Of a stretch of DNA of 64,000 nt, positions 8,184 to 10,431 are shown one piece after another (positions within the stretch are counted from its first letter, which is position 1; each line of letters starts with the position of its first letter). Under the pieces are notes generated by a model. It was not told the origin of the DNA, did not search any database, and worked only from the letters and a program-made list of their open reading frames with translations. Origin of the DNA: Rhizobacter sp. Root1238 (lineage in GTDB: Bacteria > Pseudomonadota > Gammaproteobacteria > Burkholderiales > Burkholderiaceae_C). Made by a program: the position numbers and the translations under genes. The DNA lies in assembly GCF_001425825.1 (NCBI RefSeq), contig NZ_LMDM01000012.1, positions 145,582 through 209,581 of the forward strand. The letters are read 5' to 3'.

Positions 8184-8978
8184 CTACACCACCCGCACGC
8201 TCAACACCGGCAAGCCCGCGATCTCCCCCTGCATCACATCCCCGGGCACCACCGGCCCGACGTTCTCCGGCGTGCCGCTGAAGACGATGTCGCCCGGCTT
8301 CAGCTCGAAAGCCTGCGACAGCTTGCTGATCTGCTCGGCCACGCTCCAGATCATCTGCTTCAGGTCGGCGTTCTGCTTCAGCTGGCCGTTCACCTTCAGC
8401 GTGATCGATCCCTGCGTGAAATGCCCGACCTGCGCGACGCGGTGGATCGGCCCGATCGGTGCCGAGCGGTCGAAGCTCTTGCCGATCTCCCACGGCTTCT
8501 TCTCGTCGCCCATCGCGCGCTGCAGGTCGCGGCGCGTCATGTCCAGCCCGATCGCATAGCCGTAGACGAGGTCCAGCGCCTGCTCCGGTGGCACGTTGCG
8601 CCCACCGCGGTGCAGCGCCGCGACCAGCTCGATCTCGTAGTGGTAGTTCTTCGTCAGCGGCGGGTACGGGTGCTCGCCGGTGCTGCCGGGCGCGACGAAC
8701 TGCACCGCGTCGCTCGGCTTCTGGAAGAAGAACGGCGGCTCGCGGTTCGGGTCGGAGCCCATCTCGCGCGCATGCGCCGCGTAGTTGCGACCGATGCAGT
8801 AGATGCGCCGCACCGGGAACAACTCGGCGCTGCCGACCACCGGCAGCGTCGGTTGCGGCACGTCGAACGCGGTCTTCGCGCCGCCGGCCGCGGCACCGGC
8901 GCGGCTGTCAGTGGCGCAGCCCGCCACGGCGCCCAGCCCCATCGCCGCGCCGGTGGATATCAGGTGTCGTCGATCCAT
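8184..8978 (-). CDS. Exported fumarylacetoacetate hydrolase-family protein
   Basis: A 264-residue FAH-superfamily protein of the YcgM/HpaG-like group, which hydrolyses or isomerises acyl-pyruvate or 2-keto acid substrates using a divalent metal. Visible blocks: IYCIGRNYAAHAREMG near residue 60, PFFFQKPSDAV near 80, YHYEIELVA near 112 (metal-binding Glu residues), YAIGLDMTRRDLQ near 145, and IVFSGTPENVGPV near 234. Unusually, the N-terminus (MDRRHLISTGAAMGLGAVAG then Cys21) has a twin arginine and a lipobox (V-A-G-C), suggesting export by Tat and lipid attachment, whereas family members are normally cytoplasmic. The start is well supported (GAGGAGAC before ATG). Substrate unknown. Confidence 0.85.
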   Translation of the reverse strand: MDRRHLISTGAAMGLGAVAGCATDSRAGAAAGGAKTAFDVPQPTLPVVGSAELFPVRRIYCIGRNYAAHAREMGSDPNREPPFFFQKPSDAVQFVAPGSTGEHPYPPLTKNYHYEIELVAALHRGGRNVPPEQALDLVYGYAIGLDMTRRDLQRAMGDEKKPWEIGKSFDRSAPIGPIHRVAQVGHFTQGSITLKVNGQLKQNADLKQMIWSVAEQISKLSQAFELKPGDIVFSGTPENVGPVVPGDVMQGEIAGLPVLSVRVV

Positions 8979-9075
8979 GCTTGTCTCCTCGTGGTTGGTG
9001 AACCTGTGATTGACCCGCGCCCGTGCGGTGCTGTCAATTTGCCGCCGACGGCAAACACCTGTGCGCAAAAGGAGC

Positions 9076-9106
9076 TTGACGGCCGGTCAGTGGCCCGTGC
9101 TACATT
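9076..9106 (+). promoter_or_regulatory. Promoter of the aroG leader
   Basis: TTGACG (9076-9081) and an extended -10, TG-C-TACATT (TG at 9098, TACATT at 9101-9106), are separated by 19 bases. Transcription would start near 9112-9114, at or just before the leader-peptide ATG at 9114, so the leader mRNA may be leaderless or nearly so. Confidence 0.55.
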
Positions 9107-9113
9107 CGCGCCC

Positions 9114-9197
9114 ATGCGTTTCGTTCCGTCCTACTTCTTTGCCTACTTTTGGTTCTCGCACCGCCCGGCGGAGGAGAGGTCAGCGCGTAGGCTGTAA
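9114..9197 (+). CDS. Aromatic-amino-acid leader peptide upstream of DAHP synthase
   Basis: A 27-codon open frame too short for routine gene calling. Codons 3-14 read F-V-P-S-Y-F-F-A-Y-F-W-F, so the peptide has five Phe, two Tyr and one Trp in its first 14 residues, followed by H-R-P-A-E-E-R and an Arg-rich end, then TAA at 9195. Such a run of aromatic codons just before a terminator and a DAHP synthase gene is the hallmark of ribosome-mediated attenuation. The predicted effect is that scarcity of charged tRNA-Phe/Tyr stalls the ribosome and lets transcription through to aroG. No Shine-Dalgarno lies at a usable distance, in keeping with the nearby promoter. Confidence 0.8.
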   Translation: MRFVPSYFFAYFWFSHRPAEERSARRL

Positions 9198-9231
9198 GCG
9201 ACAAACGCAAAGAACTCACCAAACCGCCGGG
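9164..9231 (+). promoter_or_regulatory. Candidate antiterminator pairing of the aroG attenuator
   Basis: CCCGGCGG at 9164-9171, within leader codons 17-20, can pair with CCGCCGGG at 9224-9231, the left arm of the terminator. It is an exact copy of part of the terminator's right arm (9237-9244), so the two structures are mutually exclusive. A ribosome stalled on the Phe/Tyr/Trp codons would leave 9164-9171 free or nearly free. How a freely translating ribosome prevents this pairing is less obvious, as the leader stop lies 24 bases beyond. Confidence 0.55.
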
Positions 9232-9253
9232 CTCCCCCCGGCGGTTTTTTTTT
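9221..9253 (+). terminator. Intrinsic terminator of the aroG attenuator
   Basis: A perfect 11-bp stem, AAACCGCCGGG (9221-9231) with CCCGGCGGTTT (9237-9247), a 5-base loop, and T residues continuing to 9253. It is the clearest canonical terminator in the window and sits 60 bases before the aroG start codon, after the leader peptide. Confidence 0.9.
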
Positions 9254-9312
9254 GCCCTCGCCGTCCCGACCCTTCGATCGTTCCCACATCGCTCACGCAG
9301 GAGATCACCCAC

Positions 9313-10431
9313 ATGAACGCCCAGTCCGCCAGCGCCACGGAGGGTTGGTATGCGCCCGTCGACAAGACAGGCCGAACCGACGACGAAAGGATCCAGGACG
9401 TGACTCCGCTGCCCCCGCCCGAACACCTGGTTCGCTTCTTCCCGATCCGCGGCACCGCGGCCGAAACGCTGATCTCCGACACCCGCCAGCGCATCAAGAA
9501 CATCGTCGCCGGCCGCGACGACCGCCTGCTCGTCGTGATGGGCCCGTGCTCGATCCACGACCCGGTCGCTGCCGTCGACTACGCCCGCAAGCTGCGCGTG
9601 CAGCGCGAAAAATACGCCGACACCCTCGAGATCGTGATGCGCGTCTACTTCGAGAAGCCGCGCACCACCGTCGGCTGGAAGGGCCTGATCAACGACCCCT
9701 ACCTCGACGAGAGCTACCGCATCGACGAAGGCCTGCGCATCGCGCGCCAGCTGCTGACCGAGATCAACAAGCTGGGCATGCCGGCCGGCAGCGAGTTCCT
9801 CGACGTGATCTCGCCGCAATACATCGGCGACCTGATCTCGTGGGGCGCGATCGGCGCGCGCACCACCGAAAGCCAGGTGCACCGCGAACTGGCCTCGGGC
9901 CTGTCGGCACCGATCGGTTTCAAGAACGGCACCGACGGCAACATCCGCATCGCGACCGACGCGATCCAGGCCGCGGCCCGCGCGCACCACTTCCTGTCGG
10001 TGCACAAGAACGGCCAGGTCGCGATCGTCGAGACGCGCGGCAACCCCGACTGCCACGTGATCCTGCGCGGCGGCAAGACACCCAACTACGATGCGGTGCA
10101 CGTCGAGGCGGCCTGCAAGGACCTCGAGGCCGCCAAGCTGAACCCGTCGCTGATGGTCGACTGCTCGCATGCCAACAGCAGCAAGCAGCATGAGCGCCAG
10201 ATCGATGTCGCGCGCGACATCGCCGGCCAGCTTGCCGGCGGCAGCCGCCGCATCTTCGGCGTGATGGTCGAGAGCCACCTGCAGGCCGGCGCGCAGAAGT
10301 TCAGCGCCGGCAAGGACGACCCGGCCCGCCTCGCCTATGGCCAGAGCATCACCGACGCCTGCATCGGCTGGGACGATTCGCTGACGGTGCTCGACGTGCT
10401 GCACCAGGCGGTGAAGGCCCGCCGCGGCTGA
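9313..10431 (+). CDS. aroG: 3-deoxy-7-phosphoheptulonate (DAHP) synthase, class I
   Basis: A 372-residue class I (AroFGH-type) DAHP synthase, which condenses phosphoenolpyruvate and erythrose 4-phosphate in the first step of aromatic amino acid synthesis. Motifs: VVMGPCSIHDP near residue 74 (metal Cys79), RVYFEKPRTTVGWKGLIND near 117, PAGSEFLDVISPQYIGDL, SGLSAPIGFKNGTDG, HVILRGGKTPNY, and the C-terminal metal-binding DCSHANSSK and MVESHL. Length matches the 350-370 of the family. The ATG at 9313 is preceded by GGAG 9-12 bases upstream. Whether it is the Phe-, Tyr- or Trp-sensitive isoenzyme cannot be told with certainty; the leader peptide's Phe bias suggests control mainly by phenylalanine. 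Confidence 0.95.
   Translation: MNAQSASATEGWYAPVDKTGRTDDERIQDVTPLPPPEHLVRFFPIRGTAAETLISDTRQRIKNIVAGRDDRLLVVMGPCSIHDPVAAVDYARKLRVQREKYADTLEIVMRVYFEKPRTTVGWKGLINDPYLDESYRIDEGLRIARQLLTEINKLGMPAGSEFLDVISPQYIGDLISWGAIGARTTESQVHRELASGLSAPIGFKNGTDGNIRIATDAIQAAARAHHFLSVHKNGQVAIVETRGNPDCHVILRGGKTPNYDAVHVEAACKDLEAAKLNPSLMVDCSHANSSKQHERQIDVARDIAGQLAGGSRRIFGVMVESHLQAGAQKFSAGKDDPARLAYGQSITDACIGWDDSLTVLDVLHQAVKARRG

Follow-up and report, generated by a model that had tools for sequence, protein, structure and literature searches.

Ribosome-mediated attenuators govern the trp, phe, his, thr and ilv operons of enteric bacteria, and the leader families of Rfam include Trp_leader and Phe_leader. For DAHP synthase genes, a predicted upstream-ORF attenuator is already on record in the uORFC-13-1 motif of Acholeplasma aroF, and the excerpted text of the same source (PMC8632094) notes, citing Camakaris 1980, that attenuation of E. 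coli aroF had been hypothesised earlier. Leader peptides that begin at the very 5' end of their transcript have been described as well: according to the available part of PMC8079986, RNA-seq in Streptomyces lividans places leuL, trpL, ilvL, metL and thrL on leaderless attenuator-peptide transcripts. An aroG attenuator was not found in the open-licence PMC literature; the accessible portions of PMC2965389 and PMC5343134 make no mention of one, and two start-site papers, on B. cenocepacia (PMC4603805) and C. metallidurans (PMC7563307), do not name aroG in the portions of their main texts that were available.

Here we describe an element ahead of the aroG gene of Rhizobacter sp. Root1238, within a stretch of 64,000 nucleotides (the window, whose numbering is used throughout). 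We consider it highly probable, at about 0.9, that this is a trp-type ribosome-mediated transcription attenuator, through which the supply of charged tRNA-Phe, tRNA-Tyr and tRNA-Trp would set DAHP synthase output, a reading built from sequence comparison and folding.

The aroG leader and its relatives

All features of the element and its gene lie on the plus strand. The class I DAHP synthase gene (aroG/aroFGH type) occupies 9313-10431, 373 codons including the stop, behind a Shine-Dalgarno-like AGGAG at 9299-9303; it scores 532.4 bits against TIGR00034 (cut-off 173.2), and 543.7 bits against the narrower AroG model, under that model's cut-off of 568. Ahead of it runs a leader peptide ORF of 27 codons plus stop, from the ATG at 9114 to the TAA at 9197 (product MRFVPSYFFAYFWFSHRPAEERSARRL), which agrees base for base with the preliminary description, as do the five Phe, two Tyr and one Trp counted there among its first 14 codons. 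The aromatic control codons (codons 3-13) span 9120-9155, within this ORF. The terminator proposed ahead of aroG is likewise present at 9221-9253: an 11-bp stem (9221-9231 with 9237-9247, loop CTCCC) runs into nine T at 9245-9253, the first three of which are shared with the stem. It is the only plus-strand terminator-like site within 8500-10000, a span in which both strands together hold three such sites and shuffles give 0.8. Its left arm is region 3 (9221-9232), which is also the antiterminator partner, and its right arm is region 4 (9237-9247). Region 2, the antiterminator arm GCCCGGCGG at 9163-9171, sits inside the leader ORF; it contains CCCGGCGG at 9164-9171, identical to 9237-9244 and complementary to 9224-9231. 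The exact copy and the alternative pairing previously claimed thus both stand, and an additional pair, G9163-C9232, brings the antiterminator helix to 9 bp.

The upstream neighbour lies on the minus strand and points away, with an ATG at 8978 (chosen by eye) and an ORF extending to 8184; because this gene is divergent, a promoter region separate from it is expected for the leader. The neighbour is fumarylacetoacetate-hydrolase-like, all its matches falling under curated cut-offs.

How readily would such an arrangement arise by chance? A detector was built for an ATG or GTG ORF of 10-40 codons that has six or more F/Y/W among 14 codons and a terminator after it, and across both strands of the 64-kb window the aroG leader was its sole match. 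It was positive in 52 of 79 real upstream regions, in 0 of 790 dinucleotide-shuffled ones, and nowhere in control sequence from related loci, 401,628 bases with each strand counted separately. Under a looser stem rule, an F/Y/W-rich leader ORF and a terminator precede the DAHP synthase gene in 64 of 80 related loci, these being the best 80 of 588 and skewed to close relatives. The remaining 16 of that best 80 lack such a leader: one (L023) has just 7 bases upstream and is thus untestable, and the others comprise three Polynucleobacter, two Cupriavidus, two betaproteobacterial bins, three bins labelled as other phyla, and loci labelled Thauera, Azoarcus, Rhodocyclus, Enterovibrio and Thioalkalivibrio. 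Within the genus of the window (11 genomes) the element is present in 10 of 10 orthologues that have upstream sequence, the window included, and the eleventh genome has a partial copy (L100). Seven DAHP synthase paralogues, among them a second DAHP synthase in the window's own genome, yielded no case of ORF plus stem in a check that demanded the same stem; paralogue L097 has a 16-codon ORF with five F/Y. Another gene of the own genome, L173, which matches PF00800, was inspected by eye.

Covariance-model searches give a second view of the distribution. Across the class, strong full-length matches (E < 1e-10) occur in 5 of 229 genomes, and matches at E up to 0.01 in 30 of 229. The 25 loci from the other 25 genomes (L106-L130) have no DAHP synthase in the locus and were treated as ordinary terminators, four of them being full-length yet weak matches; two further weak matches, L168 and L169, were treated likewise. 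In the order of the window, taken to be Burkholderiales on the strength of its named relatives, 39 of 160 genomes have matches at E up to 1e-4, of which 30 loci were read and the last 10, four of them with E below 1e-9, left out. A second order, that of genome G175, has matches at E up to 1e-4 in 14 of 61 genomes, 12 of them strong, and we call it Xanthomonas-like after L080, a named Xanthomonas locus whose leader is of the same kind. Every one of the 42 strong-match loci read (E below 1e-9, window included) has a same-strand DAHP synthase match downstream, 29-151 bases from the end of the model match; in L105 this match was found by tblastn and had been missed by the motif check.

Leaders were collected by a rule of at least four F/Y/W in 14 codons and a CCGCC/GGCGG stem, so that counts within the collection are conditioned on a rule that itself demands F/Y/W and a stem; under it, 74 of 74 leaders contain Phe and Tyr and 59 of 74 contain Trp, in line with the expectation that the leader codons are conserved in relatives. 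Phenylalanine is written TTT at 66% of leader positions (188/283), versus 16% (80/496) in the coding sequence of the same genes, a comparison covering the leaders of L001-L080 and the window; this preference may make decoding slower or help the region to remain unstructured.

Alternative pairing and a proposed course of events

An attenuator of the trp type should conserve two mutually exclusive helices, and evidence for the antiterminator comes from an alignment of 46 leaders, hand-picked out of 73 listed (from which list L060, an identical leader, had been dropped). The 2:3 helix is paired in 92.4% of cells, and sliding the partner lowers pairing to 22-62%. It has 28 double-sided changed cells versus a shuffled mean of 11.7 ± 2.8, and the 3:4 terminator has 22 versus a shuffled mean of 7.3, neither value being reached by any of 500 shuffles; these counts are not independent events, because related sequences may exceed shuffles without any structure. 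At the position beside the GGCGG core, 2:3 is paired in 41 of 46 leaders, as C-G in 22, U-A in 13, U-G in 4 and A-U in 2, and region 4 tracks region 3 there (45 of 46 paired). Counted by pairs rather than by cells, double-sided changes are unremarkable in both helices (2:3, 4 versus 3.3 in shuffles, matched by 211 of 500; 3:4, 3 versus 2.1, matched by 152 of 500), and further pair types are fewer in the terminator than in its shuffles. When partners were swapped among 72 leaders, own 2:3 partners gave a mean of 7.42 paired bases versus 6.77 for swapped ones (0 of 5000 permutations). A further 41 leaders, a set only partly independent because model R1 contains the region 2 sequence, pair regions 2 and 3 over 7 bp or more in 26 of 41 cases versus 47 of 820 shuffles, with means of 6.98 for own and 6.55 for swapped partners (0 of 10,000 permutations). 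The antiterminator thus covaries in the alignment, the partner swaps and the further leaders, which upholds the alternative pairing in relatives; covariation and codon conservation together support the preliminary reading of attenuation by Phe, Tyr and Trp codons on a DAHP synthase gene.

The core of region 2 was found in 72 of 74 leaders, being absent from L002 and L005. In most it lies 47-56 nt from the leader start, in a frame that differs by lineage (PGG versus PAE/PLAE), and since the distance is constant while the frame shifts, nucleotides rather than peptide seem to be conserved. Many leaders carry a purine block (GAGAGG-like; 9172-9179 in the window) after region 2, in varying reading frames. 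A different account of the locus would make the leader a constitutive small RNA, or a terminator-trimmed 5' UTR, with no amino acid sensing and with aromatic codons that serve a function of the peptide itself. The S. meliloti rnTrpL and peTrpL, described in the available part of PMC7298713, illustrate that leader RNAs and peptides can act in trans, but here the peptide drifts in sequence and length among relatives outside the F/Y/W block, region 2 changes frame between lineages, and 2:3 covaries with one arm inside the ORF. We regard this account as quite improbable; an added trans role of the leader RNA or peptide may nonetheless exist, being compatible with the same evidence.

The consensus fold of the leaders retains only the terminator. 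In the lowest-energy single-sequence fold of the window, region 1 (9130-9143) pairs with 9167-9179, and the resulting 1:2 protector hairpin appears in single-sequence folds of the window and shows no covariation. One version of a 1:2 stem, TTCTC/GAGAG (9153-9157 with 9174-9178), looked conserved by eye but was rejected, being 74.3% paired versus a shuffled mean of 75.8; an inner stem failed the pair count and had no covariation support. Could the leader instead sense a protein or a metabolite, as a riboswitch or a TRAP-like element, with the ORF incidental? The conserved GAGAGG-like block after region 2 speaks for it. Against this, the consensus fold is confined to the terminator, Rfam 15 has no match to the window at gathering score, and the collected leaders are F/Y-rich in 74 of 74 cases, though the rule required at least four F/Y/W. 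A search of six relatives against Rfam at E up to 5 returned 13 sub-threshold matches, none to an amino acid leader family, and the sole one lying over a leader was RNAI in L061 (22.9 bits, gathering 47, E 2.3). We judge a sensing leader of this sort very improbable.

Folding calculations bear on how an attenuator would operate here. The full leader is more stable than 200 of 200 shuffles (z -2.96), and the leader up to the terminator's left arm is no better than shuffles (z 0.44; 129 of 200 as good). In partial-transcript folds that mask out the stalled ribosome, a stall at the best-placed aromatic codon frees 2:3 (probability >0.5) in 72 of 72 leaders, and one at the first aromatic codon does so in 62 of 72; with no ribosome, 2:3 has a probability of 0.99 in the window and is favoured in 32 of 72 leaders. 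In the window, the fold before region 4 is made is the full 2:3 helix when the ribosome stalls at codons 7, 8, 9, 11, 12 and 13, and a stall at codon 14 shortens that helix. At equilibrium, the antiterminator wins with a stall at codon 13 (-33.8 versus -32.2 kcal/mol), the terminator is 2.0-3.9 kcal/mol more stable with stalls at codons 7, 8, 9, 11 and 12, and in the complete window RNA the terminator prevails by 12.3 kcal/mol (-53.1 versus -40.8). Because equilibrium mostly favours the terminator, the choice must, on these folds and established models of attenuation, be kinetic, decided during transcription.

We propose the following course for the attenuator. Transcription would begin at the leader AUG or within a nucleotide or two of it, and a ribosome would load onto the bare 5' end of the transcript. 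Scarcity of any one of the three aminoacyl-tRNAs would stall that ribosome on the aromatic codons (3-13), leaving region 2 (9163-9171) open to pair with region 3 (9224-9232); this pairing, the step to which the covariation speaks, would block the terminator and let aroG be transcribed, in an order of events that we infer. With good supply, the ribosome would reach the stop codon, and region 2 would be either covered or, in the window, folded onto the Phe/Tyr codons; with region 2 so occupied, 3:4 would pair and transcription would end near 9253. For the window, folds with a ribosome at the stop have the upstream piece placing region 2 on the Phe/Tyr codons and the downstream piece forming the terminator. 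The stop codon of the window's leader lies 23 nt beyond the region 2 core, so that a ribosome there would not cover region 2. Among the 72 leaders, a ribosome at the stop covers region 2 in 27 when a distance of up to 15 nt is applied, and in 56 under an assumed footprint of 15 nt before the P site. Within the genus, the leaders of the window, L084 and L085 have a later stop, at 27 codons, and the other seven end at 24; a ribosome at this later stop should no longer reach region 2.

The leader start, leuA and trpE

The promoter of the preliminary description comprises two boxes, a -35-like TTGACG at 9076-9081 and an extended -10 element, TGCTACATT, at 9098-9106. The 19-nt spacing between them is poor, and a sigma-70 consensus scan that allowed spacers of 16-18 nt reported no site. 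The promoter is of the extended -10 type with poor -35 spacing. TTGAC recurs at about the same place in the same-genus leaders L084-L092 and, by eye, is seldom seen in wider relatives. The predicted transcript start is the A of the leader ATG at 9114, placed by a 7-nt gap to the -10 element and by being the first purine after CCC.

Does the leader peptide then begin at the first base of its RNA? The question was put to 112 upstream regions, obtained from 114 by merging two identical ones, with L068 excluded for a misassigned start and L145 entered at its model start, which is not a start codon. Of the 112, 56 carry TGnTAnnnT at a distance of 6-9 nt upstream of the leader start; relaxing the pattern to TGnTAnnn(n)T at 5-9 nt raises the number to 68, including 13 of 13 Xanthomonas-like leaders, where the box is mostly one base longer than a -10 hexamer. 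Immediately ahead of the start, 100 of 112 have a C or a T. These patterns support leaderless translation of the leader peptide, short of proof. The competing possibility is the same attenuator with a normal 5' UTR, its true start upstream and the -10-like element at 9098-9106 coincidental. The 44 of 112 leaders that lack TGnTAnnn(n)T at 5-9 nt speak for it, as does a TTATAA/TTATAG-like box that many Burkholderia-, Caballeronia- and Massilia-like leaders have instead, at some 25-45 nt upstream (by eye), on the strength of which a leadered form seems to exist within the family. Yet the distance from TAnnnT to the start is most often 6-9 nt (63 of 112) and never 10-19 nt, a Shine-Dalgarno-like motif precedes the start in just 2 of 112, and of the 9055 ATGs in the best 80 of 588 loci only 42 have an extended -10 at 6-9 nt, 36 of the 42 being the aroG leaders themselves. 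The available parts of PMC7298713 and PMC8079986 moreover report S. meliloti trpL and several Streptomyces leader peptides to be leaderless. A normal 5' UTR for the window's leader is therefore unlikely in our estimation, and we retain the leaderless start as the preferred reading for it. In Burkholderia/Caballeronia- and Massilia-like leaders, the leaderless state may have been replaced. Many of the aroG leaders among L050-L073 (Burkholderia, Caballeronia, Massilia and kin) are, by eye, free of Shine-Dalgarno motifs and often have a T-rich 5' stretch, in contrast to the leaderless-looking leaders in other families.

The same signature appears elsewhere in the own genome. A strict pattern, TGNTACANTN{6,8}ATG, occurs four times in its 6.5 Mb (once for a reversed-pattern control), and three of these matches belong to the aroG leader and to ORFs before trpE and leuA. 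The leuA gene (2-isopropylmalate synthase; NF002991 776.9 bits, cut-off 455), at L174 on G000:C4 from about 136666 on the plus strand, comes after an ORF that looks leaderless, MTFRTTITLALFLGVPRVR; it contains three CTA leucine codons and is followed by a hairpin with a T-rich tail. To judge from these features, this is probably a leucine attenuator. Across the order, TAnnnT lies 6-9 nt before the start in 9 of 12 Leu-rich leuA leader candidates, hand-picked among 19 leuA loci, versus 40 of the remaining 1697 ATGs of these loci. The trpE gene (L175/L170, G000:C8, about 20590, minus strand) likewise has ahead of it an ORF that looks leaderless, contains two Trp codons and ends WPWRA; the same arrangement precedes trpE in L197, of the same family, with WPWRKPA. 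A short ORF with at least two Trp in 8 codons was found at 22 of 30 trpE loci, 6 of the 22 having TAnnn(n)T 5-9 nt before the start. The fourth strict-pattern match (L177; G000:C20, 48721, plus strand) precedes an ORF beginning MPRGGHFANETDPRL, which is not obviously an attenuator leader.

We tentatively suggest, at somewhat less than even odds, that leaderless initiation is integral to how a whole class of amino acid attenuators (aroG, leuA, trpE) works across Burkholderiales and the Xanthomonas-like group; that an AUG at the 5' end would let a 70S ribosome load as the RNA emerges, timing ribosome and polymerase without a Shine-Dalgarno sequence; and that the aroG member would integrate Phe, Tyr and Trp supply where the pathway begins. 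The proposed aroG attenuator gives two bacterial groups a concrete, conserved point of control over carbon entry to aromatic synthesis, and it suggests under-annotation of amino acid attenuators in both. Since its leader ORF apparently begins at base 1, it offers a natural test bed for leaderless translation that keeps pace with transcription.

Relation to known attenuators

Like the enteric attenuators, the aroG element has a leader peptide rich in end-product amino acids, mutually exclusive antiterminator and terminator helices, and an intrinsic terminator ahead of the structural gene. Unlike them, it targets the first enzyme of the whole aromatic pathway, mixes Phe, Tyr and Trp codons in one leader, and carries region 2 within the ORF, a few codons past the control codons; its start looks leaderless, and its simple 1:2 hairpin is without covariation support. 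The uORFC-13-1 motif shares Phe codons and a terminator before a DAHP synthase gene, whereas, in the excerpted account (PMC8632094), it is confined to Acholeplasma and environmental sequences, has a ribosome-binding site, is noted for at least one Phe codon and counts 24 representatives; the two are likened here by description only. S. meliloti trpL (rnTrpL) resembles the aroG leader as an attenuator RNA whose 5' end is the leader ORF ATG, a position that is predicted for aroG, and differs as a 14-aa Trp leader of trpE(G) in Alphaproteobacteria (PMC7298713, as available in part). The S. lividans leaders are amino acid attenuator peptides and leaderless, as we infer for aroG, but they belong to Actinobacteria, and the eight peptides listed in the consulted portion of PMC8079986 serve Leu, Trp, Ala, Ile, Met and Thr and include no DAHP synthase leader. 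Precedents thus exist for attenuation, for leaderless leader peptides and, in Acholeplasma, for a predicted DAHP synthase attenuator, and the aroG element is a further member of this company.
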